This document shows positions 1-53,721 of a stretch of 64,000 nt of DNA, piece by piece. Under the pieces are notes generated by a model that was not told the DNA's origin, did not search any database, and saw nothing but the letters and a program-made list of their open reading frames with translations. Numbering within the stretch: the stretch's first letter is position 1; the number at the start of each line of letters is the position of its first letter. The position numbers and the translations under genes were made by a program. The DNA comes from Arenibacter echinorum. GTDB lineage: Bacteria; Bacteroidota; Bacteroidia; Flavobacteriales; Flavobacteriaceae. The DNA is taken from positions 310,001-374,000 of the forward strand of contig NZ_QLLN01000002.1 in NCBI RefSeq assembly GCF_003259375.1, written 5' to 3'.

Positions 1-34
1 TCGCTACTATTTTTGTCTTTTTATTTATTGGCAT
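1..34 (-). CDS. pyk: Pyruvate kinase, N-terminal fragment
   Basis: Only the first 11 codons lie in the window; they read MPINKKTKIVA, the usual start of flavobacterial pyruvate kinases (MPxNKKTKIVATLGP). The start is 4 nt after the stop of the IPExxxVDY gene, so the two are probably co-transcribed and translationally linked. Pyruvate kinase makes ATP and pyruvate from phosphoenolpyruvate and ADP in the cytoplasm. The call rests on the N-terminal match and on the known Bacteroidota order rnc - IPExxxVDY - pyk. The rest of the gene is outside the window. Confidence 0.72.
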   Translation of the reverse strand, partial: MPINKKTKIVA

Positions 35-38
35 TATT

Positions 39-40369: not shown

Positions 40370-41323
40370 CTATTGATAGTTATAGACGTCCTTTAATTTC
40401 TGTACTTCCCCATTTTCATCCAAAATATCCAGATCATAGCGTATTTGGACACGTGTATTTAAGGGCGCATGGTAATAAATAATCCAAGCGTCTGCCTCGG
40501 TAACCCCAATACATCCATTGGAAGATGCCTTGCCCAGGGTTACTGGGTTAGTGGTGGGATGTATCATTTGCCCGTTACGAATGCCATTAATTTCTGTTTC
40601 TATCCATGGAATTGTGGGCATTATGGTCGTTTTTTTATCATCCCTTCTGGTCACATAAAATCGCTTGCCTGTTACAGGATTATAAAAACTGGGATTCCGC
40701 TCCAACCTTACAATCTTGCCTTTTCCTGTCTTGGTTCTTAGATCTGTTATTCGATCTCCCATGGCCAAATACCTTTTCCTATCTTGCCCAACCCTGATCG
40801 GAAAGGTATATAACAACAAGGAATCTTGATAAATGCGGAGCCTATATTCGGGAATATTTATATCTATCAATGTATTTTCCATATCCTTGATAAGTTGCTG
40901 CCCCACTTTGGTATCGGGAATCAACAAGGAATCATTGGCCCGAAGCACAATCATTTTCCGTTGATCATAAACAAAGGAATCCTTTGCCATTTGCCTGTAA
41001 TAATCCGTATTGGCCAGAGTATCCACTATCCAAGGATTCGCACGAACCAGCACATGTTCGGACAAAGCATAGGGCACTAAGGAATCATACTTCTTGGCCA
41101 TTGCATCCATAAAACTGAAATAATTAGCCACTGTAATGTCCTTGTCAATATAAGCCATTTGGGGCTTGGCTTTCTTAGGGACATTATTTTGCGGCACTAT
41201 TTTTTGCTGAACAGATGGAGGGTTTTGAGCAGATGGGTTTTTCGTGGAAATAGGTCGGTTAACATTACATGAAACTATCAAAAGAACTAATAGATGGAGA
41301 ATGATCACCTTAGATTTAATCAT
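40370..41323 (-). CDS. L,D-transpeptidase (YkuD) lipoprotein
   Basis: 317 residues from MIKSKVIILHLLVLLIVSC, a lipoprotein signal; an ATG at 41353 would precede the signal and the predicted transcription start, so I reject it. A Pro/Gln/Lys-rich linker precedes a region (about 160-290) with the YkuD catalytic motif, His in MIHPTTNPVTLG and Cys in SSNGCIGVT. It cross-links peptidoglycan or attaches proteins to it. Its promoter carries a TGA-N6-TCA site at the standard position. Confidence 0.88.
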   Translation of the reverse strand: MIKSKVIILHLLVLLIVSCNVNRPISTKNPSAQNPPSVQQKIVPQNNVPKKAKPQMAYIDKDITVANYFSFMDAMAKKYDSLVPYALSEHVLVRANPWIVDTLANTDYYRQMAKDSFVYDQRKMIVLRANDSLLIPDTKVGQQLIKDMENTLIDINIPEYRLRIYQDSLLLYTFPIRVGQDRKRYLAMGDRITDLRTKTGKGKIVRLERNPSFYNPVTGKRFYVTRRDDKKTTIMPTIPWIETEINGIRNGQMIHPTTNPVTLGKASSNGCIGVTEADAWIIYYHAPLNTRVQIRYDLDILDENGEVQKLKDVYNYQ

Positions 41324-41350: not shown

Positions 41351-41393
41351 CAAAACTAATACGCCTCAAGGGATTATAAAATGACAATGGTCA
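41351..41393 (-). promoter_or_regulatory. Crp/Fnr-type operator and -7 box of the L,D-transpeptidase gene
   Basis: Site TGACAATGGTCA (41382-41393) and perfect -7 TAGTTTTG (minus strand, 41358-41351). Centre-to-box distance 29.5 nt; predicted start 22 nt before the ATG. Confidence 0.75.
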
Positions 41394-41405
41394 CCACCCT
41401 ATTAT

Positions 41406-41428
41406 ATGACATTCCTCATTTTAAGCCC
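41406..41428. repeat. 23-bp direct repeat, copy 1
   Basis: ATGACATTCCTCATTTTAAG plus CCC, identical to 42347-42369. It contains the imperfect operator TGACATTCCTCA. Copy 1 has no -7 box at the standard distance. Confidence 0.8.
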
Positions 41429-41686
41429 ATATTTTTGGATTTTTATTATTTATTTGAACCGGTCAACCTAAAATAGGTTCAGTAAAAAATAGTGTAGCAA
41501 GACAAATAACGAAAGTTTGTTCTTATTCCATTTAAATAATCCCATAAGTAAGGGAAATGGTTGGTGGACTAAAACGAAATAATTAAATTAAAGTTTAAAT
41601 TTACAGATGACATATTTAATAGAAAGCACATATTCCTTTTTGTGTTTTTCAGGCGGTAACCCAAGCAACTTTTAAACTAGAAAAAA
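41429..41686. other. AT-rich intergenic region
   Basis: Between copy 1 of the direct repeat and the NTF2-like gene I see only AT-rich sequence, with no supported gene or complete promoter. Confidence 0.5.
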
Positions 41687-42142
41687 ATGAAAAAGAACTT
41701 CCTTTTAATCCTTTATACTTTTCTGGCCATGCAATTGTTATTCCCCCAGGGTAATAAGGGTAATACCGAACAAAGGCAAGGAATTTATACCTTGATAGAA
41801 GCCTATGCCCAGGCAAGGGAAAAGAAAGATACCTTATTGCTCAAAGATATTTTAACGACAGATGTAGATCAACTGGTTTCATCAGGGATTTGGAGAACGG
41901 GTAAAAATGAATCCATGAAAGGGATGCTCCAGAGCTCGGCTGGCAACCCAGGAACGCGAACCCTCAAAATTGAAAAAATACGCTTTCTTAGTTCGGAGAG
42001 CGCAATAGCAGATGCCAAATATCAAATACAGAATCCCGATGGTTCCCTTAGGAATATGTGGAGCACTTTTATTGTAGTTTTCGAGGAAAATAGGTGGAAA
42101 ATTTCTGCTATAAGAAATATGTTGCCCGCAGCGCCACAATAA
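41687..42142 (+). CDS. Secreted NTF2/SnoaL-like (DUF4440-type) protein
   Basis: 151 residues. Signal peptide MKKNFLLILYTFLAMQLLFPQ. The remainder fits the SgcJ/DUF4440 cone fold: IYTLIEAYAQAREKKDTLLLKDILTTDV at the start, and WSTFIVVFEENRWKISAIRNM at the end. Function unknown. It lies inside a 940-bp segment flanked by two identical 23-bp repeats, with a broken HTH gene on the other strand next to it. Confidence 0.8.
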   Translation: MKKNFLLILYTFLAMQLLFPQGNKGNTEQRQGIYTLIEAYAQAREKKDTLLLKDILTTDVDQLVSSGIWRTGKNESMKGMLQSSAGNPGTRTLKIEKIRFLSSESAIADAKYQIQNPDGSLRNMWSTFIVVFEENRWKISAIRNMLPAAPQ

Positions 42143-42213
42143 GCTTTCACCATGGCAATTAAGAAAAATCTATAATTAAATTACCAAAATCGATTCTGAT
42201 ATCCAATTGATCA

Positions 42214-42360
42214 TCATTCAGGACTAAATCCCAAAATGTCGCCGGGCTGACAATCCAAAACCTCGCATATGGAGTTAAGCGTACTGAAGCGAACAGCTTT
42301 TGCTTTCCCATTTTTAAGAATGGAAAGACATCTGTCACAACAACACATGACATTCCTCAT
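42214..42360 (-). pseudogene. Remnant of a YozG-like (XRE) helix-turn-helix regulator
   Basis: A 48-codon frame. Its last 38 residues, starting LSILKNGKAKAVRFSTLN and continuing through CEVLDCQPGDIL, match the C-terminal half of small Cro/C1-type regulators that normally have about 70 residues. The first helix and recognition-helix start are missing and are replaced by MRNVMCCCDRC. The beginning overlaps copy 2 of the 23-bp repeat and the mlaE promoter. I infer a gene truncated by rearrangement. Confidence 0.7.
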
Positions 42361-42369
42361 TTTAAGCCC
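42347..42369. repeat. 23-bp direct repeat, copy 2
   Basis: Identical to copy 1 at 41406-41428. This copy lies in front of mlaE, where its TGACATTCCTCA core occupies the operator position. Confidence 0.8.
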
Positions 42370-42390
42370 CCACCTTTCAAGTTATCTTTG
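42348..42390 (+). promoter_or_regulatory. Crp/Fnr-like operator and -7 box of mlaEFD
   Basis: Imperfect site TGACATTCCTCA (42348-42359) and perfect -7 TATCTTTG (42383-42390), distance 29.5 nt. Predicted start about 26 nt before the ATG. Confidence 0.6.
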
Positions 42391-42421
42391 ATGAAATAGA
42401 CCCTTACAAAGGGATTTGGGT

Positions 42422-43204
42422 ATGGGCAAAACAGCTACATTATTTAAAGGGGCGAAAAAGTTTTTCATAGAGATAGGGGATCTCTCCTACTTTGGTGCCC
42501 GATTTTTTAAGGAGGTCTTTAAACCTCCTTTCGAGTTTAAGGAACTAATGCGCCAATGCTATCAAATGGGAAATAGGTCCCTAATGCTGGTTACGGTAAC
42601 AGGCTTTATCATTGGGCTGGTACTTACCTTGCAATCCAGACCCACCCTGATTCAGTTTGGAGCAGTTTCCTGGATGCCGAATATGGTAGGAATCTCCATA
42701 GTACGGGAAATAGGACCTGTAATTACCGCCCTTATCTGTGCTGGCAGAATTGCATCAGGGATAGGAGCCGAATTAGGTTCCATGCGGGTTACGGAACAAA
42801 TTGATGCCATGGAAGTCTCGGGGACCAACCCTTTTAAGTATTTGGTAATAACAAGGATAATGGCCACCACTTTAATGCTCCCTATTTTAGTGATATACGG
42901 GGATTTGGTAGCCCTTTACGGATCGGCACTGGTAGAAAATTTAAAAGGAGATGTTTCCTTTCAACTCTATTTTAATACGGTTTTTGATGCTCTGTCCTTT
43001 AGTGACCTGGTACCGGCCACTATAAAATCGTTCTTTTTTGGCTTTGCAATAGGATTGGTAGGCTGTTATAAAGGCTATTATTCCAAGAAGGGAACCGCAG
43101 GTGTAGGGGTAGCGGCCAATACCGCTGTAGTAATGGCATCATTACTTTTGTTTGTGGTAGATTTTATTGCTGTATTTATTTCAGATATTTTTTATGAGCT
43201 TTAA
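42422..43204 (+). CDS. mlaE: MlaE-type ABC transporter permease
   Basis: 260 residues from ATG 42422; a TTG six nt earlier is less likely. About five or six membrane helices, with the MlaE motifs MVGISIVREIGPVITALICAGRIASGIGAELGSM (conserved arginines and ELG) and KSFFFGFAIGLVGCYKGY. It forms the inner-membrane channel of a phospholipid trafficking system that keeps the outer membrane asymmetric. First of mlaE-mlaF-mlaD; the next gene begins 1 nt after its stop. Confidence 0.92.
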   Translation: MGKTATLFKGAKKFFIEIGDLSYFGARFFKEVFKPPFEFKELMRQCYQMGNRSLMLVTVTGFIIGLVLTLQSRPTLIQFGAVSWMPNMVGISIVREIGPVITALICAGRIASGIGAELGSMRVTEQIDAMEVSGTNPFKYLVITRIMATTLMLPILVIYGDLVALYGSALVENLKGDVSFQLYFNTVFDALSFSDLVPATIKSFFFGFAIGLVGCYKGYYSKKGTAGVGVAANTAVVMASLLLFVVDFIAVFISDIFYEL

Positions 43205-43205
43205 T

Positions 43206-43988
43206 ATGACAGAACCGGACCAAATAACAACTTCAAACGAATCTGCCCAAGGAGGGAAGGCAGTTATAGAGATCAAGGACCTTTATAAAAGTTTTGGGGA
43301 CAACCACGTCCTGAACGGATTTAATATGACCCTAATGGAAGGAGAAAACCTAGTGGTCATGGGGAAATCGGGCTCTGGGAAATCGGTAATGATCAAATGC
43401 CTGGTTGGCCTGGTAAAACCCGATAGCGGAACGGTAAAAGTATTGGGCGAGGAAATAAACAAACTGGACCAACAGACATTGGACGAATTGCGATCGGATA
43501 TTGGATTTCTTTTTCAAGGAAGTGCGCTATACGATTCCATGACGGTGCGTGAAAATTTGGAATTTCCCATGCGTAGGCACAAGGAAAAATTGGGAGTGGT
43601 TTCGGATACAGAACCGCTGGTTCGTGAAGCGTTGGAAAATGTTGGCTTGGCCCATACTATGGATTTAATGCCGGTGGAATTATCGGGAGGAATGAAAAGA
43701 AGAATAGCCTTGGCACGTACACTGATCCTAAAACCAAAGGTAATCCTATATGATGAGCCTACAAGTGGCTTAGACCCCATTACCTCCAAGGAGATTATAG
43801 AATTAATGCGCTCCATTCAAAAGAAATACGGCACTTCCTCCCTAATAATTACCCATGATGTGGATTGCGCCAGAGTAATATCGGAGCGGATGATCCTCTT
43901 GGTAGATGGTATTAACTATGCAGAAGGCACCTATTCCCAATTATCACAATCTACCGATCCAAAAGTGGATGCGTTTTTTAAAAAATAA
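43206..43988 (+). CDS. mlaF: MlaF-type ABC transporter ATPase
   Basis: 260 residues from ATG 43206 (an ATG at 43194 is an alternative overlapping mlaE). Walker A GKSGSGKSV, signature LSGGMKRR, Walker B VILYDEPTSGLDP and switch ITHDVD are all present. It powers the Mla permease. Normal length for the family. Confidence 0.95.
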   Translation: MTEPDQITTSNESAQGGKAVIEIKDLYKSFGDNHVLNGFNMTLMEGENLVVMGKSGSGKSVMIKCLVGLVKPDSGTVKVLGEEINKLDQQTLDELRSDIGFLFQGSALYDSMTVRENLEFPMRRHKEKLGVVSDTEPLVREALENVGLAHTMDLMPVELSGGMKRRIALARTLILKPKVILYDEPTSGLDPITSKEIIELMRSIQKKYGTSSLIITHDVDCARVISERMILLVDGINYAEGTYSQLSQSTDPKVDAFFKK

Positions 43989-43992
43989 GAAC

Positions 43993-44982
43993 ATGGCAAA
44001 GACAACATTAGAAAATTTGAAACTCGGGATATTCGTTGTCCTCGGCACGGCACTGCTTGTCGTTGCAACATATTTAATTGGGAACAGACAGAATATGTTT
44101 GGTAAAACCATCTCTATAAGTGCCCTTTTTAAGGATGCCAACGGACTTCAGAATGGAAATAATGTACGCTTTTCCGGTATAAATGTAGGCACGGTGAACA
44201 AAATTGAAATGATCAACGATACTACCATTCGCGTTCATATGATCATCGAGGAAAAAATGCAAAATCACATTAAAAAAGATGCCGTAGCCACTATTGGTTC
44301 CGATGGACTAGTGGGCAGTATGCTCATCAATATTGTACCTGGGCAAGGAAAGACAACCCACATTGGCCCAGGGGACGAATTACAATCCTTTAGCAGGGTG
44401 GCCACCCAAGATATGCTGAACACCCTTAACCAAACCAATGAAAATGCCGCTTTATTAACGCAAGACCTGCTAAAGGTAACACGAGCTTTGACCCAGGGCA
44501 AAGGCACCTTTGGCAGGTTGCTGAACGATTCCCTCATGGCAAAGGAACTACACCAAACCATTACCAATCTGAAACATACCAGTAATGAAGCCAATATAAT
44601 GATTGCAGAGATAAACCAGATTGTTAAGCAGGTGGATTTTGACAATAGTACTGCAGGTGTTCTCTTAAAGGACTCCATTACTGGGGATAAAATGAAAAGT
44701 GTTATTTCTCATCTGGAAAACTCCAGCCTGGAGATCGAAAAAATGTCCAAGAACCTAAATTCGGTCATCGGGGATATTAAAACAGGGAAGGGGGCCATTA
44801 ATTATTTGGCCACAGACACCGTATTGGTAGGACAATTGGAAACTAGCATGGAAAACGTTACGGAAGGAGTTAAAAATTTCAACGAGGTTACGGAAGCCTT
44901 AAAGCATAACTTTCTCACCCGCCGCTTCTTCAAAAAGAAAGAAAAAGAGGAAAAAAAGAAACTGGAAAAAATTGATGAATAA
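43993..44982 (+). CDS. mlaD: MlaD-type substrate-binding protein
   Basis: 329 residues from MAKTTLENLKLG. One N-terminal membrane helix (about 12-30), then the MCE/MlaD domain (about 38-115, GLQNGNNVRFSGINVGTV), and a long helical part ending in a charged tail (FFKKKEKEEKKKLEKIDE). It forms the periplasmic ring that passes lipids between membranes. 4 nt after mlaF. The window shows no mlaB or mlaC neighbour. Confidence 0.93.
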   Translation: MAKTTLENLKLGIFVVLGTALLVVATYLIGNRQNMFGKTISISALFKDANGLQNGNNVRFSGINVGTVNKIEMINDTTIRVHMIIEEKMQNHIKKDAVATIGSDGLVGSMLINIVPGQGKTTHIGPGDELQSFSRVATQDMLNTLNQTNENAALLTQDLLKVTRALTQGKGTFGRLLNDSLMAKELHQTITNLKHTSNEANIMIAEINQIVKQVDFDNSTAGVLLKDSITGDKMKSVISHLENSSLEIEKMSKNLNSVIGDIKTGKGAINYLATDTVLVGQLETSMENVTEGVKNFNEVTEALKHNFLTRRFFKKKEKEEKKKLEKIDE

Positions 44983-45035
44983 ATACCTTAAATCCAGTTA
45001 TACTTTGACCCAATTACATGGAAAAAATGGTTGCT

Positions 45036-46253
45036 CTATACTTTTTCAAGCTTTATAAAGGTAATTTCCGGACGCATGCCCAATCGGCCAGGAAATCCCA
45101 TCCATCCCAATCCACGGCTTACATACAGAAATTGAGGGCCCAAACTATATAGTCCTGCCCAATGTTTGTATTTGTATTTTATGGGACTCCATTCTTTATT
45201 TCTGATGTTGATCCCCGCCTGCATACCATGGGTATGCCCTGAGAGCGTAAGCGCTATATTAGTCTTATCCGCCACCTCCTCGCTCCAATGCGAGGGGTCA
45301 TGCGACAATAAAATTCTAAACCCTATACCCTCTACTTCATGTAGGGATTTTTGAAGGTCCCCGTATTGCTTAAAGGGTGGATTCCCCCAGTTTTCCACTC
45401 CCACAATTGCAATTTTCTCGCCCTTGTTCTCAATACATACGGCTTCATTCAGTAAAAGCTTAAAACCAATTTGGGAATGAAAATCCTTTATATCCTCAAA
45501 ATTGCTCTTTCTATCTTCTTCCGATTCCCATTTACTGTAATCCCCATAATCATGATTTCCCAAAACCGAATATTTTCCCCGTTGGGCGGTCAATTTATTA
45601 AGTACATCCTCCCAACCATTTAATTCCCAAGCATAATTGTTGACCAAATCACCGGTAAAAAAAATAAAATCGGGCTTTAAACTATTTATGGTATTGATGG
45701 CGCGGTGCAATATATGATAGCGATAATTAAAACTGCCCAAGTGAAGATCGGATATTTGAACTATCCGCAATCCGTTAAAATTTTGCGGCAACAAATTGGA
45801 TTTTATAACAACCTGGTGTACTTTAAATCTGTATACCGCCCTGAATACGGCATACACAATAACGAAGAATGGTAAAAACCCAAAAAAAACACCTACTAAA
45901 GGAATAATCAGCAAGGATTTCTCCCCTGAGATCAAAAAATTTGAGAAGTAAAGTGTGGAAATAACAACTACGAATATCAGCTTGGGAATAAAGGAGGAAA
46001 CCGTTAATCCATATAAGGACGAAATAAGGAGTTGTTTTCTATAAGGTGATATACTTTCCAATCTAATTTTCAACACCAAAATAGAAATAATGAGGCCGAT
46101 GGTAAAAAACCAAAAGGCGATAAAAATAATATTCTTAATGTTGGAAGATTCAATAGGCTCCATGATAGATTTAAGCCAGTAGAAAGCCAAGGCATCGATC
46201 AATAAAATGGCCAAACATAAAAGGACTATTGCAAAAAAAGTGTAGGATCGCAT
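45036..46253 (-). CDS. Membrane metallophosphoesterase (YaeI-like)
   Basis: 405 residues. Four N-terminal membrane helices (about 5-25, 40-60, 88-108 and 117-140) precede a calcineurin-like domain with VQISDLHLGSF, FFTGDLVNN, VLGNHDYG, LLSHDP and LSGHTHGMQ. The active site faces the cytoplasm or periplasm, depending on helix count. The YaeI/YkuE class acts on lipid-linked or small phosphoesters. It follows the CDP-alcohol transferase gene by 14 nt, supporting a lipid role. Confidence 0.88.
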   Translation of the reverse strand: MRSYTFFAIVLLCLAILLIDALAFYWLKSIMEPIESSNIKNIIFIAFWFFTIGLIISILVLKIRLESISPYRKQLLISSLYGLTVSSFIPKLIFVVVISTLYFSNFLISGEKSLLIIPLVGVFFGFLPFFVIVYAVFRAVYRFKVHQVVIKSNLLPQNFNGLRIVQISDLHLGSFNYRYHILHRAINTINSLKPDFIFFTGDLVNNYAWELNGWEDVLNKLTAQRGKYSVLGNHDYGDYSKWESEEDRKSNFEDIKDFHSQIGFKLLLNEAVCIENKGEKIAIVGVENWGNPPFKQYGDLQKSLHEVEGIGFRILLSHDPSHWSEEVADKTNIALTLSGHTHGMQAGINIRNKEWSPIKYKYKHWAGLYSLGPQFLYVSRGLGWMGFPGRLGMRPEITFIKLEKV

Positions 46254-46267
46254 TAAAAGGGGTTTTG

Positions 46268-46864
46268 CTACTGGTTATTGTTATTCGCTAGCCGTCTTTT
46301 ATCTTTCAACGCCCAGAAATAACCTTTTACATCCTCTACCCAGTTGTCATACATAAAGATAAGAGTAATTTCCTCAAGAGTTTCCAATACCCCAAAAACA
46401 ATCATTGCATAAAACAGCCAATATACCGGTCCAAAAAATAACAGCCATAAAATAAATATCCCTTGGGTAATGGCAGATATTTTGGCCAAATAGGTGTGAA
46501 AGGCAGTTGCTTTACCGTATTTCGCAAACGCAATGGACATTTGAATCAAGTATGGTACAAATGCAATAATTATAAGAAGAAAGTTTTCCATGATGAAATT
46601 ATTTTCAAAAAAGAACAGACCGATCAATCCAATAATAAGGGTTATTTGATCTCCCACAGAATCCAACTGTGATCCCCTGGCGCTTGTAATTTTCAACCTT
46701 CTTGCCAAAAACCCATCAATGGCATCGGTAGCATAACTTATAAGGAGCATCCAACTAAACCATTCCCGTTCACCATACCAAATTAGAGCAAGTAATAGGG
46801 GTACGGCCATAATTCGATAAAAGGAAAACCAGTCGGCAATATTGAAGTTTTTAAAATTATACAT
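46268..46864 (-). CDS. CDP-alcohol phosphatidyltransferase family protein
   Basis: 198 residues, about five to six membrane helices. The family motif is complete: DAIDGFLARRLKITSARGSQLDSVGD (D-x2-D-G-x2-A-R-x8-G-x3-D-x3-D). It transfers a phosphatidyl group from CDP-diacylglycerol to an alcohol such as glycerol-3-phosphate or serine. The acceptor is not evident. It precedes the metallophosphoesterase gene, which could be a partner phosphatase. Confidence 0.9.
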   Translation of the reverse strand: MYNFKNFNIADWFSFYRIMAVPLLLALIWYGEREWFSWMLLISYATDAIDGFLARRLKITSARGSQLDSVGDQITLIIGLIGLFFFENNFIMENFLLIIIAFVPYLIQMSIAFAKYGKATAFHTYLAKISAITQGIFILWLLFFGPVYWLFYAMIVFGVLETLEEITLIFMYDNWVEDVKGYFWALKDKRRLANNNNQ

Positions 46865-46915
46865 AACTATTCATCAGTATTATAAATCCTATGATCAGAA
46901 ACCGTATTACTACAC

Positions 46916-47425
46916 TTACAACTTTAGCAAGGGGTTTAATTTTTTAATAATTTCACCTACGAACATGGGAGTTTCGTCCAAAATAGATTCTCCCGTAAAA
47001 GCATCTACGCCTTCCATTTTGTAGGAGCCTTCGCCCGAGGTGGTCAGGACAACCATCTTGTCCCTATCATCGGTGGTTCTGTCCATAAATGATTTAACGG
47101 AAGAAGGTGGCTTCCAATTCTCCCAGGTGTGGATTACCAATAAGGCATCGTAATTATTCGGATTTACACCCACTAATGCGGAAACATCTATTACCTTGAT
47201 ATATACCGGCTCCGTTTTGTAGTAATCCACAATGGCGGTAGTAATTGTATTTTTAAATTCACTTCCCTGTGTGGCCAAAAGCAATCTGGAATTTTCCCCG
47301 GGAGAATTTACCTCGTATTCCTGAACATGGTCCATAGCGTATTCATTTTGATACCAAAACATAAACACCAAGAAGACCACAGCAGCCGATAAAAACACAA
47401 GAAGTATCTTTCTAAATTTTTTCAT
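46916..47425 (-). CDS. Membrane-anchored flavodoxin-like protein
   Basis: 169 residues. One N-terminal membrane helix (KILLVFLSAAVVFLVFMFW) with the rest likely outside. The body has a flavodoxin-type alternation: SRLLLATQGSEFKNTITTAIVDY near the first strand, LLVIHTWENWKPPSSVKSFMD and MVVLTTSGEGSY. The phosphate-binding loop (ATQGSEFKN) is not a full flavodoxin T/S-x-T-G-x-T, so FMN binding is unproven. It resembles predicted flavodoxin-fold dialkylrecorsinol-type proteins only in fold. Preceded by a TGA-N6-TCA promoter and a 108-nt leader. Confidence 0.62.
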   Translation of the reverse strand: MKKFRKILLVFLSAAVVFLVFMFWYQNEYAMDHVQEYEVNSPGENSRLLLATQGSEFKNTITTAIVDYYKTEPVYIKVIDVSALVGVNPNNYDALLVIHTWENWKPPSSVKSFMDRTTDDRDKMVVLTTSGEGSYKMEGVDAFTGESILDETPMFVGEIIKKLNPLLKL

Positions 47426-47538
47426 AGAATTACATCTTTAATTTACTGCCCTTAAGAAGGAAAAGTACAAGCAACTCGGGTCTTAATCCCTCTTGAATAG
47501 CGTTGTGGGCAGCACCCACTAATTCCTGCTTAGGATTA
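47426..47538 (-). other. Leader region of the flavodoxin-like gene
   Basis: The minus strand contains a stop-bounded frame ending 4 nt before the ATG, with the peptide QELVGAAHNAIQEG and LRPELLVLFLLKGSKLKM and no ATG (a GTG is possible). It may be a leader peptide or gene remnant. A GTGGG/CCCAC hairpin lies at 47505-47519. Confidence 0.3.
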
Positions 47539-47581
47539 TAAAGCTATACCTTAACACTGCACCACCCTATGACCATTGTCA
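47539..47581 (-). promoter_or_regulatory. Crp/Fnr-type operator and -7 box before the flavodoxin-like gene
   Basis: Site TGACCATTGTCA (47570-47581), the reverse complement of the site at 41382. Minus-strand -7 TAGCTTTA (5 of 6 positions), distance 29.5 nt. Confidence 0.65.
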
Positions 47582-47706
47582 GTTATACACACAACGCAAT
47601 TAATATAAGTTGAATAATAGATAAATCCAGTTCAGTGAACCAAACTGATGAAGTGTTGTGAAGAAAGAATACCAATATCCAAAAACCTAAAGGCCAATGC
47701 CCTACA

Positions 47707-47749
47707 TGATATTTATCATTTGATACCGATTGAATTGTAACTTTCTTTA
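47707..47749 (+). promoter_or_regulatory. Possible Crp/Fnr-type operator of the OmpA-like lipoprotein gene
   Basis: Site TGATATTTATCA (47707-47718). At the standard distance lies TTTCTTTA, which matches only 4 of 6 -7 positions, so this is the weakest member of the set. Confidence 0.45.
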
Positions 47750-47781
47750 TGGGACAACTATTATTCAATAAAATTATGAAT

Positions 47782-48648
47782 ATGAAAACACTATTTCTTT
47801 ACGTATTGGCACTAACACTTTTTACTTCCTGTGTAAGCCAAAAAAAATATACTGCTATGCAAGACCGGGCAGTAAATTGTGAAAATGAATTAAATACCAG
47901 CAAGAACGAAATTAATTTGTTGGAAGCCGGATTGGCCAATGAGAAAAACAGATCCAAATCCTTGGAGCAACAAATGGAATACTTTAAAAGTACCAACACA
48001 GACCTGTTGGCCCGACTTTCCGATCTTTCCGTTGTAAGCAAATCGGGAGCCGAAAGTATTAAGAAATCTTTGGAAGCCCTAAACGAACAGAATAAATACA
48101 TAAAAGACCTTACAAGTAGTATGCAGCGAAAAGACTCCATTAATTTGGTATTGGTCATGAACTTAAAAAGGTCCTTGGACAATTTTGAGGATGAGGACAT
48201 AAATATTGAGGTGAAAAAAGGAGTGGTCTATGTCTCTATCTCGGACAAAATGCTTTTCCGTTCCGGGAGTTATAACATAAGTAACAGGGCAGAGGAAGTT
48301 ATCGGCAAAATTGCCAAGATCATCAATGACCATAAGGAATTGGATATTTTAGTTGAGGGCCATACAGACAATGTTCCCATTTCTACCGAATGCATGACCG
48401 ACAATTGGGATTTAAGTGTAAAAAGGGCAACGTCGATTGTACGATTAATGCAAACTAAATTTGCTGTTCAACCTTTAAGAATGACGGCTGGGGGACGTTC
48501 CGAATACCTGCCAAAAACTACCAATGCAACAGCGGAAGGTAGAGCCGTTAATCGCAGAACGGAAATCATTATTTTACCCAAACTAGATCAATTCTTTGAA
48601 TTGCTGGAACCCCCAACCACAAATGTAGAGGGACAGGGAAAAGGATAA
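47782..48648 (+). CDS. OmpA-family lipoprotein
   Basis: 288 residues from MKTLFLYVLALTLFTSC (an ATG six nt upstream is equally possible). Lipoprotein signal with LFTSC lipobox. A coiled-coil region (about 25-115, NELNTSKNEINLLEAGLANEKNRSKSLEQQMEY) is followed by an OmpA C-terminal domain (about 155-270) with the peptidoglycan-binding ILVEGHTDNVPI and NRRTEIIILP. It should link the outer membrane to peptidoglycan. The next feature is the candidate noncoding RNA. Confidence 0.9.
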   Translation: MKTLFLYVLALTLFTSCVSQKKYTAMQDRAVNCENELNTSKNEINLLEAGLANEKNRSKSLEQQMEYFKSTNTDLLARLSDLSVVSKSGAESIKKSLEALNEQNKYIKDLTSSMQRKDSINLVLVMNLKRSLDNFEDEDINIEVKKGVVYVSISDKMLFRSGSYNISNRAEEVIGKIAKIINDHKELDILVEGHTDNVPISTECMTDNWDLSVKRATSIVRLMQTKFAVQPLRMTAGGRSEYLPKTTNATAEGRAVNRRTEIIILPKLDQFFELLEPPTTNVEGQGKG

Positions 48649-48723
48649 TAGTCATAGAAGGATTCAGGACATTAAGCATTCCTGTTTCCTTTATTCAAAA
48701 ATCAAGAAAAAAAAACACTCAAC

Positions 48724-48766
48724 TGATCTATGTCATTTCGTATCCAATATGATAACCATATATTAG
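48724..48766 (+). promoter_or_regulatory. Crp/Fnr-type operator and -7 box of a noncoding RNA
   Basis: Site TGATCTATGTCA (48724-48735) and -7 TATATTAG (48759-48766, 5 of 6 positions), distance 29.5 nt. Predicted start near 48772, with no gene until 49119. Confidence 0.6.
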
Positions 48767-48771
48767 TATTA

Positions 48772-49000
48772 TTAAAAAGCAATCGTTCTTTGAAAGAAAT
48801 AAAAATAAAGTTTCTAAGCAGTAATGCCTTAGCGACCATAAACCGGTGCATAAGTAACTTCTTGAGCCTTATTACCCTACCCCCTTGTACAGCCCGTTAC
48901 AATTGAAGCATGCTGCTTGGGACTCGGATAAGTGCAAAAGTGCTGCCCAAGCCCGGACATTAAGGATTGGGATATCTATATATCCCAATCCTTTTTTTTA
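48772..49000 (+). ncRNA. Candidate regulated structured RNA
   Basis: About 228 nt from the predicted start to the terminator. It includes a CTAAG/CTTAG hairpin near 48813, a 7-bp stem GCTTGGG (48915-48921) with CCCAAGC (48946-48952), and a 13-14-bp terminator hairpin. Any reading frame here is short and unconvincing. The structure does not let me assign it to 6S, SRP, RNase P or tmRNA. It could be a trans-acting small RNA. Confidence 0.5.
48962..49000 (+). terminator. Strong terminator of the candidate RNA
   Basis: 13-bp stem AAGGATTGGGATA / TATCCCAATCCTT with a 6-nt loop, then an uninterrupted T-run. Confidence 0.88.
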
Positions 49001-49118
49001 TATATGGTCCTTTTTTTTTGAAGGACAACCATACCTTCTTTACGTTATGAACCGATTTAAATGGATTAAAAAATTAGTATATTAAGTACTATATTAAAAA
49101 CACATTAATAATCTTATT

Positions 49119-49511
49119 ATGGAATACTATTTTAACAAGACCATTGGAAATACCCCTTTTGAAAAAGCAGTGGAAAAAACAAAATTGGCCCTACAGGAAG
49201 AGGGCTTTGGAGTACTAACAGAAATTGATATGAAGGCTACATTAAAGAAGAAATTAGATGTAGATTTCTATAATTATATCGTTCTGGGTGCCTGCAACGC
49301 CCCCTTTGCCCATAAAGCCTTACAGGCCGAGGATAAAATTGGTACCATGTTGCCCTGTAATGTAATTGTTATGGAAAAGGAACCTGGGCTTGTAGAAATT
49401 GCAGCAGTAAACCCTATGGCGTCAATGCAGGCCGTAATTAACCTGGATTTAATGAATATTGCTGATGAAGTGGGTGAGAAACTAAAAAGGGTGGTAGAAA
49501 AAATCCATTAA
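49119..49511 (+). CDS. DUF302 domain protein
   Basis: 130 residues, one DUF302 domain (FNKTIGNTPFEKAVEKTKLALQEEGFGVLTEIDM, then VLGACNAPFAHKAL and LPCNVIVME). The fold binds small molecules or metals; function unknown. Cytoplasmic. It lies in the stress cluster directly after the candidate RNA; its own promoter is not clear (an imperfect TGAACCGATTTA occurs at 49048). Confidence 0.87.
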   Translation: MEYYFNKTIGNTPFEKAVEKTKLALQEEGFGVLTEIDMKATLKKKLDVDFYNYIVLGACNAPFAHKALQAEDKIGTMLPCNVIVMEKEPGLVEIAAVNPMASMQAVINLDLMNIADEVGEKLKRVVEKIH

Positions 49512-49514
49512 GCA

Positions 49515-49970
49515 CTAAGAACCATATTTTTTAATGATGGCCATTTGACCCGAATGGTGTACGGTGTGGGATACGATTCTTCCAAAGGCCTCCGCCTTTG
49601 TCTTTGTGCCAAATTCCTTGGTGGTAACTGTGGCCTCCCAATCTTTCTCTTGTTGCTTTTCCAATACCGATTTAAGCATTTGGAAAGAATATTCCACATA
49701 TTCCAATAATTCGGTCAGATTGGTCCACTCCCCTGTATCCTTCTGCGCAATAACCGATTTTGCAATGACCTTTACATCCTGTGCACCAAAAACGTTCTTG
49801 GCAAAAAGCAATTCCACGTCCCCAATATGCCTAATAAGAAAACCTATACTGTTTGGTGCCGGTAATAATCTTTTGCTTAGATCCTCTTGTGTTATATTGG
49901 ACAACTGGTTGGAAAACCGGGTCCTGGCCTCTTCCCATAATTCAATAAACAATTGTGTTTTTGATTTCAT
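49515..49970 (-). CDS. DinB-family protein
   Basis: 151 residues, four-helix DinB/YfiT fold. Candidate metal-binding histidines occur in IRHIGDVELL and IVSHTVHHSGQMA. Family members are thiol- or metal-dependent transferases; the substrate is unknown. It is convergent with the DUF302 gene, the two stops being 3 nt apart. Confidence 0.83.
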   Translation of the reverse strand: MKSKTQLFIELWEEARTRFSNQLSNITQEDLSKRLLPAPNSIGFLIRHIGDVELLFAKNVFGAQDVKVIAKSVIAQKDTGEWTNLTELLEYVEYSFQMLKSVLEKQQEKDWEATVTTKEFGTKTKAEAFGRIVSHTVHHSGQMAIIKKYGS

Positions 49971-50157
49971 GAAATATTAAATAAGAATATTAAAGAATAT
50001 GGGTAGGTTGTGGAAATCATGTAGGTTATCATAGCCTATTTAGGACTAAATTCCCCCATACTTTTTTAACCTCTTGAATATCTTTTCAACATAAAGGATA
50101 CTATATAAATACTGGCATAAATAAAAAGTGCTAGGTATAAGGTCATGGTATTGGTAT

Positions 50158-50610
50158 TTAGAATATTAAATTATTAAAGATCATCCCTTTTAGATTTTTT
50201 GGAAGGCTATCCCTGATATCGGACATTTCTCCCTGGGATACATATTTTCGTAAATAAAGAAATGTGGTATTTACATATTCTTCGGCCACTTCATCACTGT
50301 ATTCAAAATCGTTTATTGCTGTAGGTCCATCAAATTGTCTGACCAAATCCAAAAATTCGGCCATATGCTTAATTTTGGGCTTCTCCTTTTTTACCGTCCA
50401 ACCGTTAACATAAACGGCCTTTAGAAACATGGGCATCTGGGCAATAAATTGCAAGGACTCCTCCACAGGAATAATTTCCCTCAACGCATGAAGTACCGAG
50501 GTTAAAATGCGACCGGCTTTGTCGGTATCGTTCCCCAGATCCATTTGCTTAGTGTAATCCTTAAGGAAGGTGTGCCCCTCCGTAGCGTACTGATTAAAAT
50601 TAAGTGCCAT
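50158..50610 (-). CDS. DUF2267 domain protein
   Basis: 150 residues, all helical, DUF2267 family (TDKAGRILTSVLHALREIIPVEESLQFIAQMP, and MSDIRDSLPKNLKGM). Function unknown; family members occur in stress and low-oxygen gene groups. Its promoter bears the best operator of the set: an 18-nt nearly perfect palindrome with TGACCTGGGTCA. Confidence 0.87.
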   Translation of the reverse strand: MALNFNQYATEGHTFLKDYTKQMDLGNDTDKAGRILTSVLHALREIIPVEESLQFIAQMPMFLKAVYVNGWTVKKEKPKIKHMAEFLDLVRQFDGPTAINDFEYSDEVAEEYVNTTFLYLRKYVSQGEMSDIRDSLPKNLKGMIFNNLIF

Positions 50611-50634
50611 GATTTCTTTTTTTTAGGATATATA

Positions 50635-50677
50635 CAAAAATGGTCTTATCTTTTTAATTGTAAAATGACCTGGGTCA
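50635..50677 (-). promoter_or_regulatory. Crp/Fnr-type operator and -7 box of the DUF2267 gene
   Basis: Site TGACCTGGGTCA (50666-50677), embedded in the longer palindrome AAATGACCTGGGTCATTT, and minus-strand -7 CATTTTTG (5 of 6 positions), distance 29.5 nt. Predicted start 19 nt before the ATG. Confidence 0.78.
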
Positions 50678-50800
50678 TTTATACTAAAATCATGGATTAA
50701 ACTAATTTGAATTTGTCCAAAAACACCTTGCTTTTCGTATCGGTTTTATCTATTGTTTTAATATAGGGCAAGAGGATCAGAAAATTTCATTAACCCCTCC

Positions 50801-51499
50801 TTAAGCAATATTTAAGGCTATATCTATCATGTCCTGAAAAGTAGTTTCCCTTTCTATGGAATTGGATTTTTGGCCAGTGACCAAAGAATCCGAAATAGTC
50901 AATATTGCAAGGGCCTTAACATTAAACTTGGCAGCTATGGTATATAATCCGGCCGCCTCCATTTCTACACAAAGAACCCCAAATTTCGCCCACAATTTGT
51001 AAAAATCTGGATCGTCCTCATAAAATTCATCCGATGAAAGTACATTCCCTGCCTTAATGTTAATTCCCTTTGCTTTGGCATAAATTGCAGCTTTAAGAAG
51101 CAGGTCGAAATCGGCCGTTGGCGCAAAATCCGCATTAATAAATCTGGAATTATTGATCCCAGAGGTGGTGGAAGCCGCCATTGCCAAGACAATATCGCGT
51201 ATTTTCACCTCTTTTTGATAAGAACCGGCGGTACCTACACGAATTAGATTTTTCACCCCATAATCATTTATTAGCTCTTGATAGTAGATGAGCGCCGAAG
51301 GAATGCCCATACCACTTCCCTGAACAGATATACGTTTGCCCTTAAAGGTGCCGGTATATCCCAACATACCACGAACTTGGTTATAGCAGAAGGGGTTTTC
51401 TAGAAAGGTGTTCGCTATCCATTTGGCCCTTAAGGGATCTCCGGGCATCAGTACGGTTTCGGCAATTTCACCTTGCTTGGCCTCAATATGTGTGCTCAT
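50801..51499 (-). CDS. deoD: Purine-nucleoside phosphorylase
   Basis: 232 residues, DeoD-type hexameric enzyme. Motifs include GDPLRAKWIA, GSGMGIPSALIYY (phosphate and ribose site), CVEMEAAGLYTIA and SDSLVTG with the catalytic Asp. It splits purine (deoxy)nucleosides with phosphate to base and (deoxy)ribose-1-phosphate. Transcribed downstream of deoC (51-nt gap), forming a deoxynucleoside-salvage pair. Confidence 0.95.
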   Translation of the reverse strand: MSTHIEAKQGEIAETVLMPGDPLRAKWIANTFLENPFCYNQVRGMLGYTGTFKGKRISVQGSGMGIPSALIYYQELINDYGVKNLIRVGTAGSYQKEVKIRDIVLAMAASTTSGINNSRFINADFAPTADFDLLLKAAIYAKAKGINIKAGNVLSSDEFYEDDPDFYKLWAKFGVLCVEMEAAGLYTIAAKFNVKALAILTISDSLVTGQKSNSIERETTFQDMIDIALNIA

Positions 51500-51550
51500 A
51501 TATAATATAATTTCTAATTCCTGTTCCCAAATTCTATTGGACCAACACCT

Positions 51551-52198
51551 TCAGTTTTGGTTGGTGACTATGGCTACTCCAGAAGATGTACCTATTCTAG
51601 CCACCCCTAAATCAATATAGTTTTTGGCGGTCACCGCATCCTTAATTCCTCCTGATGCTTTTATCTTAATCTTGTTTCCTACTGCCTTCTTCATCAAAAC
51701 CACATCTTCAAAAGATGCCCCCCTGGAACCAAAACCAGTTGAAGTCTTTACAAAATCGGCTTTAGCTCTTACCGCTATTTTACATGCGGTAATTATTTCA
51801 GCATCGGTCAAATAACAGGTTTCCAAAATTACCTTTAGCACATTATTGCCTACAACTTCCTTTACTTGCCTTATTTCTTCTTGGACAGCTAAATAATCCC
51901 CTGATCTTAGCCTCCCAATATTTAATACCATATCCAATTCATTGGCCCCCAGCTCTATATAATCCATGGCTTCGTTCACCTTGGCCTTGGTGGACATGGC
52001 CCCTAATGGAAATCCCACCACCGAGACCACCCTTACCTTCGAATCCTTAAGTAAATCCTTTGCAAGGGCTATATGACATCCATGGATACATACCCCATAG
52101 AAATTAAAATGCAAAGCCTCTGAACAAAGTTGTATAATATCCTTGTCTGTTGCCGTTGGCTTTAATAAAGTGTGATCAATAAAATTTTCAAAGTGCAT
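51551..52198 (-). CDS. deoC: Deoxyribose-phosphate aldolase
   Basis: 215 residues. The Schiff-base lysine is in DFVKTSTGFG, the second lysine in IKIKASGGIKD, and the catalytic Asp in NELDMVLNIG. It splits deoxyribose-5-phosphate to glyceraldehyde-3-phosphate and acetaldehyde. First gene of a deoC-deoD unit whose promoter has a perfect -7 box and a TGA-N6-TCA site. In E. coli the deo operon is also Crp-controlled, though with a different architecture. Confidence 0.96.
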   Translation of the reverse strand: MHFENFIDHTLLKPTATDKDIIQLCSEALHFNFYGVCIHGCHIALAKDLLKDSKVRVVSVVGFPLGAMSTKAKVNEAMDYIELGANELDMVLNIGRLRSGDYLAVQEEIRQVKEVVGNNVLKVILETCYLTDAEIITACKIAVRAKADFVKTSTGFGSRGASFEDVVLMKKAVGNKIKIKASGGIKDAVTAKNYIDLGVARIGTSSGVAIVTNQN

Positions 52199-52253
52199 TT
52201 TTCAAATTAAAACCTGTTGGAAATTAAGCATTTCATAAACGACCCCATTTTAC

Positions 52254-52296
52254 CAAAAGTAAACTTCTTAAATATGCCATTTTATGACAACGATCA
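52254..52296 (-). promoter_or_regulatory. Crp/Fnr-type operator and -7 box of deoC-deoD
   Basis: Site TGACAACGATCA (52285-52296) and perfect minus-strand -7 TACTTTTG (52261-52254), distance 29.5 nt. Predicted start 50 nt before the ATG. Confidence 0.75.
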
Positions 52297-52352
52297 TCAA
52301 AATAATACATGGACAAAACAATTATGAAGATATAAGGTTAATGAGGAAAGAA

Positions 52353-52622
52353 TTAGGCAAAGGCGGTCTCAGTACTACTATCACCATGTAAATTGGGGCT
52401 TAATGTAGAAAGAAATTTAAAATGTCGTATGGGATATCCAATCCTCCAAAGTTCCTGTTTTACTTGTTCCAAAGCTATTGGACTATAGTAAAGGAAGATG
52501 AGCCTTCCAGTGTCAACTTCAAGGTCTATTACCCTAATATCCATAATACGCCTAAGGTTCCGAAGAATCATCATCTTTTCATTATTAGAGATTAGGTTGC
52601 CAATTTTTGCTATAGCTTTCAT
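52353..52622 (-). CDS. Small HMA-like protein (89 residues)
   Basis: 89 residues with an HMA-like alternation (MDIRVIDLEVDTGRLIFLYYSPIALEQVKQELWRIGYPI) but no CxxC metal site. A serine-threonine tail follows (LSPNLHGDSSTETAFA). Function unknown; it may be a small regulator or interaction partner. It is divergent from the UspA gene, and both have sites of the same class. Confidence 0.65.
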   Translation of the reverse strand: MKAIAKIGNLISNNEKMMILRNLRRIMDIRVIDLEVDTGRLIFLYYSPIALEQVKQELWRIGYPIRHFKFLSTLSPNLHGDSSTETAFA

Positions 52623-52653
52623 GAAGTTTAGGATTTATGAATTCCAATGAATA

Positions 52654-52696
52654 CTAAAATACAACTGAAAATTGTCCTTAGAAATGATACAGATCA
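52654..52696 (-). promoter_or_regulatory. Crp/Fnr-type operator and -7 box of the HMA-like gene
   Basis: Site TGATACAGATCA (52685-52696) and minus-strand -7 TATTTTAG (52661-52654, 5 of 6 positions), distance 29.5 nt. Confidence 0.7.
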
Positions 52697-52816
52697 GTTA
52701 ACACATATTTTATACCATATATGGGCTTTAGATATAATAAAGTTGCACCGAAAAGACAGTTTTTATGATTAATACAACAATCCAAAATGCCTAAAAACCC
52801 AGTGTACTTTAGCTTA

Positions 52817-52859
52817 TGACCGATATCATATTTATTATCGGCAAATGCTTTTAGATTTA
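52817..52859 (+). promoter_or_regulatory. Crp/Fnr-type operator and -7 box of the UspA gene
   Basis: Site TGACCGATATCA (52817-52828) and -7 TAGATTTA (52852-52859, 5 of 6 positions), distance 29.5 nt. Predicted start 14 nt before the ATG. Confidence 0.7.
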
Positions 52860-52878: not shown

Positions 52879-53721
52879 ATGAAGACAATACTTTACGCCT
52901 CCGATCGTACCGAAAACTCCGCAGCGGCCTTGAAATATGCATATCAATTAAGTAATCAGTTAAAGGCTTCTCTGATGGTCCTTTATGTTCATGAAATGGA
53001 TCACATTAGGGTTTCTGTTTCTCGGCCAGTGGCACAAATTGAATACCACGTAATTCAGGAGCAGACCGAAATTTTAACCAAATATTGCGAAAAGCATTTG
53101 GGCGTTACCGTAGATGGCAAAAAGATACAAGTCCAGGTAGTCCATAACGATTCGGTTTCCGATGCCATTTTGGAAAAATCCAGGGATTTTGGAACCGATA
53201 TGATCATCATAGGGAGAAAGGACAAACATACAGATCGCGGTCTATTTGTGGGCAATATAGGAAAGGGCCTTCAGGAAAAGGTTCCCTGTCCCCTACTAAT
53301 TATCCCAAATAATGTTGTGGCCAAGTCCATAAAAACTATTTTGTATGCCACAGATTTTGAGGAAGCGGATATTTTGGCTCTTAAGAAATTGGTCCCAATG
53401 GCAAAGGCACTTGGCGCCAAAATACAGATAGTACATATATCCACTGAAAAAGAATATGCTGGAAAAGAACAGATGGAGTGGTTTAAGGATATGCTTCGGC
53501 AAGAGGTTGACGATACTGCCATAGGCTTCACCCTAATTTTCTCTGACGAGATCCAGGATAAACTTAAAACCCATGCCAAGACTATTGGGGCCGATTTATT
53601 GGTACTGCTTGAACGGGAGGAAAAGGGATTTTTTCAAAAAATATTCCATATAAGCTTGGTTGCAAAAATGGAGGAACATATCAGCATCCCCTTACTGAGT
53701 TATAACGAGCTAAATTTATAG
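52879..53721 (+). CDS. Universal stress protein (tandem UspA)
   Basis: 280 residues, two UspA domains (about 1-145 and 150-280, each beginning with KTILYASD or KTILYATD). The first contains GRKDKHTDRGLFVGNIGKG near the ATP loop. Cytoplasmic stress protein. Its promoter has the site class shared by the local cluster, unlike the homologue at 19.6 kb. Confidence 0.9.
   Translation: MKTILYASDRTENSAAALKYAYQLSNQLKASLMVLYVHEMDHIRVSVSRPVAQIEYHVIQEQTEILTKYCEKHLGVTVDGKKIQVQVVHNDSVSDAILEKSRDFGTDMIIIGRKDKHTDRGLFVGNIGKGLQEKVPCPLLIIPNNVVAKSIKTILYATDFEEADILALKKLVPMAKALGAKIQIVHISTEKEYAGKEQMEWFKDMLRQEVDDTAIGFTLIFSDEIQDKLKTHAKTIGADLLVLLEREEKGFFQKIFHISLVAKMEEHISIPLLSYNELNL

Follow-up and report, generated by a model that had tools for sequence, protein, structure and literature searches.

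A shared Crp/Fnr-type operator spacing at nine Arenibacter echinorum promoters and its linkage to Fnr-type and hybrid response regulators

We analysed a 64,000-nucleotide stretch of the Arenibacter echinorum genome (C2:310001-374000 of 5.19 Mb in 24 contigs; the window hereafter), in which nine promoters carry a Crp/Fnr-type operator at one fixed distance from the Bacteroidota -7 box. The nine sites are rather probably activator-dependent promoters of one large regulon, and this window cluster would be run in trans by two hybrid response regulators encoded on contig C6. The operator, its spacing, its conservation, its linkage to two regulator classes and a half-site difference between the two can be read directly from the sequence.

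Nine promoters with one operator geometry

The initial annotation listed nine TGAN6TCA repeats, each centred 29.5 nt upstream of the first base of a TAnnTTTG box. All nine are present at the positions given and the distance holds for 9/9, which leaves 23 nt between palindrome and -7 box (N23). When the sites are aligned on the palindrome and six box positions are scored per site, the matches are 6, 6, 5, 4, 5, 5, 6, 5 and 5 of 6 in site order, or 47/54 in sum at N23. The summed score is 10–26 at the remaining spacings of 5–59 in the same direction, and 9–26 in the opposite direction, with 21 at N23 and no peak.

These scores agree with the claim of at least five matching positions at eight of nine sites. 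Three boxes are full and the exception is the OmpA site at 47707 with 4/6. The inner pattern TGAYN4RTCA had been given to six sites and is actually followed by 8/9; the sole departure is the mlaE site at 42348, which had rightly been called imperfect. As had also been described, the sites face the following gene.

41351..41393, minus strand: operator TGACCATTGTCA, N23 and box TAGTTTTG, L,D-transpeptidase promoter; box 6/6
40370..41323, minus strand: L,D-transpeptidase (YkuD) lipoprotein; PF03734, 1.8e-16
42348..42390, plus strand: imperfect operator TGACATTCCTCA, N23 and TATCTTTG, mlaE operon promoter; box 6/6
42422..44982, plus strand: open reading frames (ORFs) of mlaE, an mlaF-like ATPase and an mlaD-like protein; MlaE PF02405, 3.5e-74, the other two read from ORFs
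47539..47581, minus strand: operator TGACAATGGTCA, N23 and TAGCTTTA, promoter of the flavodoxin-like gene (46916-47425); box 5/6
47707..47749, plus strand: operator TGATATTTATCA, N23 and TTTCTTTA, OmpA lipoprotein promoter, likely start codon 47779; box 4/6, the weakest
47779..48648, plus strand: OmpA-family lipoprotein; PF00691, 9e-18
48724..48766, plus strand: operator TGATCTATGTCA, N23 and TATATTAG, probable small RNA promoter; box 5/6
48772..48998, plus strand: probable noncoding RNA, about 225 nt, start approximate; intrinsic terminator at 48962-48993 and T-run
from 49119: DUF302 gene, downstream of the probable RNA; Pfam support
50635..50677, minus strand: operator TGACCCAGGTCA, N23 and CATTTTTG, promoter of the DUF2267 gene (50158-50610); box 5/6, PF10025
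52254..52296, minus strand: operator TGATCGTTGTCA, N23 and TACTTTTG, deoC-deoD (52198-50801) promoter; box 6/6, deoD PF01048
52654..52696, minus strand: operator TGATCTGTATCA, N23 and TATTTTAG, promoter of the HMA-like gene of 89 amino acids (52353-52622); box 5/6
52817..52859, plus strand: operator TGACCGATATCA, N23 and TAGATTTA, UspA promoter; box 5/6
52879..53721, plus strand: tandem universal stress protein; PF00582 in two stretches, 2e-23

In the window, TGAYN4RTCA alone occurs 10 times vs 3.9 expected (0/100 shuffles), 8/10 inside the cluster. Allowing two mismatches, the strict composite also occurs 10 times vs 2.8 expected (0/100 shuffles), 9/10 inside the cluster. A looser composite, TGAN6TCA-N23-TANNTTTG with two mismatches, gave 18 matches vs 12.3 expected, a number reached in 6/100 shuffles. 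This near-chance result led us to drop it as a window test and to use the strict and genome-wide ones instead.

The spacing recurs across the genome, and this genome-wide scan is the decisive one. TGAN6TCA-N{10..38}-TANNTTTG has 65 matches; N23 accounts for 25 and no other spacing for more than 5. TGAYN4RTCA-N23-TANNTTTG with one mismatch has 79 vs 4 for its reversed control. We analysed 78 sites, namely 77 of these 79 and the OmpA site; two damaged operators, C5:504110 and C7:224659, were excluded. Their base frequencies are shaped by the search pattern at the searched positions. At the unsearched ones, the base before TGA is A in 49%, C in 40% and T in 6% (A or C in 89%), and T follows TCA in 81%. 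The Fnr/FixK box TTGAT-N4-ATCAA, with its outer T in each half-site, does not describe the 78 sites.

The N23 peak places the operator at a fixed distance upstream of the box, overlapping the -33/-35 region, as in class II activation. The proposed Crp/Fnr-type operator at class II distance is further supported by the facing of the sites, near-rigid spacing across genomes and similar recognition helices. Its replacing the -33 element also fits: TTTG lies upstream of the box at spacers of 16–19 in 10/78 sites and at 20–21 in none. The activator would presumably sit at about -42, if the usual start-site distance for such boxes applies here.

Of 70 distinct palindromes, eight are flanked on both sides by a box scoring 5/6 or better at N23 (C4:191360, C4:583257 and C6:97909, 99443, 156244, 161611, 170901 and 190628). 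Such a two-sided palindrome may serve as one operator for two divergent promoters.

The geometry is conserved within the genus. Nine relatives of the same genus have a syntenic island, and 72/72 promoter copies in them keep the operator at N23 with boxes of 4–6 of 6. The copies number 8 for the L,D-transpeptidase (box 5–6), 9 for mlaE (operator and box identical in all), 9 for the flavodoxin-like gene, 8 for OmpA (palindrome and N23 in all, box 4/6 each time), 9 for the RNA (box 4–5), 7 for DUF2267, 6 for deoC, 8 for the HMA-like gene (box 4–5) and 8 for UspA. The inner bases and the 23-nt spacer vary in this comparison while the distance is constant. Two rearranged relatives both have the DUF2267 site and one has the UspA site; the L,D-transpeptidase box is 4/6 in one of them.

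The 225-nt stretch after the 48724 promoter has no long ORF and ends with a terminator-like hairpin. Ten genus sequences including its own align with 84% mean column identity and an invariant core. No Rfam family reached gathering level for the region, and the RNA had a chance-level match only. In 149 family genomes, with no other genome of its genus among them, a DNA search found the full RNA in its own genome only and fragments of 27–58 bases in five others. From its sequence, it is probably a genus-level regulatory RNA under the shared operator.

The gene names of the initial annotation stand in part. Pfam supports the L,D-transpeptidase, MlaE, OmpA, DUF2267, deoD phosphorylase and Usp. At 1e-3, Pfam matched neither the flavodoxin-like nor the HMA-like protein. 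The names deoC, mlaF and mlaD were read from the sequences.

A second copy of TGACATTCCTCA, the palindrome at 41407, was not counted, as it has no N23 box (3/6). Between the L,D-transpeptidase and mlaE promoters lies an insert of about 940 bp with a DUF4440 ORF, bounded by a 22-bp direct repeat (41407-41428 and 42348-42369). In seven relatives without the insert (G308, G309, G311, G312, G297, G304 and G301), the two operators lie 22–31 bp apart.

The ORFs downstream of the 78 sites are mostly named from their sequences. Among them are what we take to be 13 universal-stress-type proteins, together with a HemN-like enzyme, a CcoI-like ATPase, a CcoS-like protein, a NirK-like copper enzyme, and FtsH-like and thioredoxin-like products. 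A second island at C6:140-197 kb presumably holds PpsA-, D-lactate-dehydrogenase-, Pta-, AckA-, HSP20-, Ca-ATPase- and phosphorylase-like genes. This target set suggests a low-oxygen or energy-stress regulon, the signal being read off the targets.

Two regulator classes linked to the operator

The genome encodes 20 proteins with the PF00027 cyclic-nucleotide-binding fold. The Fnr-type protein (C4:190.6 kb) and two hybrids (C6) have the similar recognition helices TATESAIR, TATETAIR and IATESLIR. Several short PF00027 proteins of about 175–200 amino acids also have a Glu...Arg helix, for example TPESLSR. A published study places a flavobacterial Crp/Fnr homologue in a MalR-like group (PMC8510549).

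Each of the two hybrids joins PF00072, PF00027 and PF13545 in one chain, that is a receiver, a cyclic-nucleotide-binding fold and a Crp helix-turn-helix. PAS histidine kinases adjoin both, and an N23 operator at C6:166560 precedes one kinase-hybrid operon. Residues D9, D52, K104, E316 and R320 are kept in 48/48 hybrids, E316 and R320 lying in the recognition helix. The hybrids thus have what defines the Crp/Fnr family, a cyclic-nucleotide-binding fold followed by HTH_Crp with the helix Glu and Arg. They equally have the receiver Asp and Lys and the adjacent kinase of response regulators. In 41/46 loci a kinase match lies no more than 1.3 kb from the hybrid centre, and any kinase match was found in 1/14 controls.

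The full-length hybrid occurs in 43/296 genomes of the phylum, all of the same class, and three more matches are receiver-only. At least 11 of the best 80 matches in named genomes cover both parts. These are without exception from Bacteroidota and include an uncultured Aquimarina, Chitinophaga filiformis, Jiulongibacter sediminis, Arcticibacter svalbardensis and Sphingobacterium corticibacter. When the PDB was searched by sequence, the best 60 of 169 matches each had their best stretch in the receiver or the Crp part, never across both. A full-text literature search, with the matches listed judged by title and abstract start, gave none on a receiver-Crp hybrid or on this operator in Bacteroidota. 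The C6-island genes are not constant neighbours of hybrids, with Usp at 21/46 loci, LdhA-like at 6, Pta at 1 and AckA at 1.

The Fnr-type gene adjoins a CcoI-like gene, and the operator at C4:191329 with a full box lies directly upstream of it. Its protein (L212) and 29 orthologues keep C4, C7, C53 and C106 in 30/30; they come from 26 genomes of the family, in which 27 have a match, and from 4 outside it. In an alignment with a solved Fnr, C4/C7 and C106 match its cysteines and C53 does not. One cysteine ligand thus seems to have moved from the N-terminal segment to the beta-roll, and the protein is possibly an iron-sulphur (Fe-S) oxygen sensor. A palindrome lies within 400 nt of the gene start in 26/26 same-family genes read. 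At 1e-30, an Fnr-type match occurs in 65/296 genomes, although at least two of the rows listed are hybrids themselves.

Exact N23 matches occur in 123/296 genomes of the phylum: 30/30 in the family (this genome included), 5/6 in the rest of the order, 31/37 in the rest of the class and 57/223 in others. For the family, order and class groups, the reversed-pattern control gives about 0.2 per genome. Family genomes with both regulators average 13.3 exact sites (n=13), those with the Fnr type only 7.0 (n=14) and those with the hybrid only 5.3 (n=3). G271, from another class of the phylum, has 28 exact N23 matches and 0 reversed. It encodes an Fnr-type protein (40% identity), and no hybrid was found there at 1e-40. 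The geometry exists also outside the class.

We examined 46 hybrid neighbourhoods of up to 20 kb (about 10 kb on each side) at spacings of 5–36 with boxes of at least 5/6. Operator and box occur together 118 times at N23 vs 1–11 times at each other spacing; in 14 control stretches, taken from some of these genomes, there are 0 N23 sites. Palindrome density is 0.279/kb around the hybrids vs 0.043/kb in the controls.

Which protein would read the window cluster

In the mechanism that we propose, a dimer of the Crp/Fnr fold would bind TGAY-N4-RTCA centred 29.5 nt upstream of the Bacteroidota housekeeping -7 box. The bound dimer would substitute for the -33 element and contact RNA polymerase as a class II activator. 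The Fnr-type protein and the hybrids would read a nearly identical operator. The hybrid would be a phosphorylatable receiver fused to a Crp/Fnr body and fed by the neighbouring PAS histidine kinase. The two C6 hybrids would then most likely drive the window cluster in trans upon kinase signalling, probably under oxygen limitation or energy stress. Binding, activation, phosphorylation and the signal are what we infer here.

The two regulator classes appear to differ at one base per half-site. TGAYC half-sites make up 4/98 sites in the Fnr-only genomes of the family, 35/80 near hybrids of the family and 7/8 of the window palindromes, a count that excludes mlaE. Elsewhere in the genome they are found at 9/18 in the C6 island and 11/40 in the remainder. 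Among the 13 family genomes with both regulators, eight were compared within one genome: after two sites beyond 36 kb were dropped, TGAYC was 0/15 nearest the Fnr gene vs 17/29 nearest the hybrid. C or G at that position occurs in 24/31 sites near hybrids of other families vs 8/98 in Fnr-only genomes. Because C-containing half-sites are frequent near hybrids, the window cluster most likely belongs to them.

The same half-sites bear on the idea that the Fnr-type protein alone runs the window cluster as a classical oxygen-responsive regulon, while the hybrids control other genes. Its own gene has the full-box operator, the 14 Fnr-only family genomes hold their 98 N23 sites without a hybrid, and the HemN- and CcoI-like targets, as named from sequence, are typical of Fnr. 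However, the C that marks the window half-sites is rare in the Fnr-only genomes and absent nearest the Fnr gene, and we hold this idea to be unlikely, if still worth keeping in sight.

Another of the 20 cyclic-nucleotide-binding-fold proteins is an improbable reader. One candidate, which we set aside, is L032, a third Crp/Fnr protein of 226 amino acids at C1:479 kb, possibly a separate Dnr-like regulator. Its helix is Fnr-like, and the short members with a Glu...Arg helix widen the choice. But L032 has VETLAR against TE(S/T)..IR in the Fnr type and both hybrids, and the classical box TTGATTTAAATCAA upstream of it has the outer T in place of the A or C that prevails in the regulon. Operator linkage was shown for the Fnr type and the hybrids only.

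That the palindromes are mainly repressor or class I sites, or that AT-rich promoter composition gives rise to the spacing, seems very improbable to us. Some sites do have weak boxes, and there are palindromes, near hybrids too, that lack an N23 box. Against this stand the N23 peak, far above all other spacings also in 909 kb from 42 other genomes, the near-zero reversed controls and the scarcity of TTTG at -33.

Several points count against the mechanism proposed here. No regulator gene lies near the window cluster, both hybrids being on another contig, and the mlaE operator falls short of a proper palindrome. The p-values for the window vs the Fnr-only half-sites (Fisher, 1e-7) and for the eight-genome comparison (8e-5) are optimistic, since the feature was chosen after viewing the sites and neither half-sites nor related genomes are independent. 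The half-site test rests on 8 window palindromes, and 13/14 Fnr-only genomes are of one genus. Near hybrids of other families TGAYC is 7/31, the C being less marked. An N23 site is missing around 9/46 hybrids, and five class genomes with neither regulator still average 1.8 sites, with a match in 3/5. The same sites may also be bound by both regulators.

The Fnr-type loci add to these points. Upstream palindromes were found in 0/4 of the genes outside the family, and an N23 box of at least 5/6 faces the Fnr gene at 3/26 same-family loci. On the divergent side of the 26 loci, the box is at N23 in 18, N22 in 1, N24 in 4 and nowhere within N15–N31 in 3. The spacing is thus not absolutely fixed, and one base of slack may be tolerated at the Fnr-type locus (L213-L237).

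Known systems and meaning for the Bacteroidota

The Fnr, Anr and FixK class II promoters of Proteobacteria have two TGA half-sites, the activator near -41.5 and hypoxia-type targets such as HemN, Cco and Usp. The present system shares the palindrome of two TGA halves, the class II distance and the hypoxia-type targets. Unlike them, it uses the Bacteroidota TAnnTTTG box, and its upstream outer base is mostly A or C, not the T of TTGAT. The Fnr-type protein has CxxC, C53 and C106, unlike the three N-terminal Cys and one more of proteobacterial Fnr.

In the FixL-FixJ-FixK cascade, a PAS histidine kinase, a receiver and a Crp/Fnr-type activator serve low-oxygen genes. The hybrid system has the same three parts, presumably with a similar role, but combines receiver and Crp/Fnr activator in a single protein, which would merge the separate steps of FixJ and FixK into one. 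Like the OmpR/PhoB- and NarL-type response regulators, the hybrids have the conserved receiver Asp, an adjacent kinase and a DNA-binding output. Unlike in those, the output domain is a Crp/Fnr body.

The principle is ordinary, being that of Crp/Fnr class II activation. What looks new is that a response regulator is built on a Crp/Fnr body and has its operator architecture in common with an Fnr-type protein. We put at about even the chance of the broader proposal, in which a widespread Bacteroidota two-component class with Crp/Fnr output shares its class II operator with an Fnr-type sensor, but for one base per half-site. Phosphorelay and Fe-S signals would then meet in a single large stress regulon, of which the window cluster is part.

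The geometry amounts to a concrete rule by which activator-dependent promoters of Bacteroidota can be recognised in raw sequence. With it come two regulator classes and a one-base discriminator, all open to direct test. These results suggest how Bacteroidota may place universal stress proteins, fermentation and high-affinity respiration under two different sensors.

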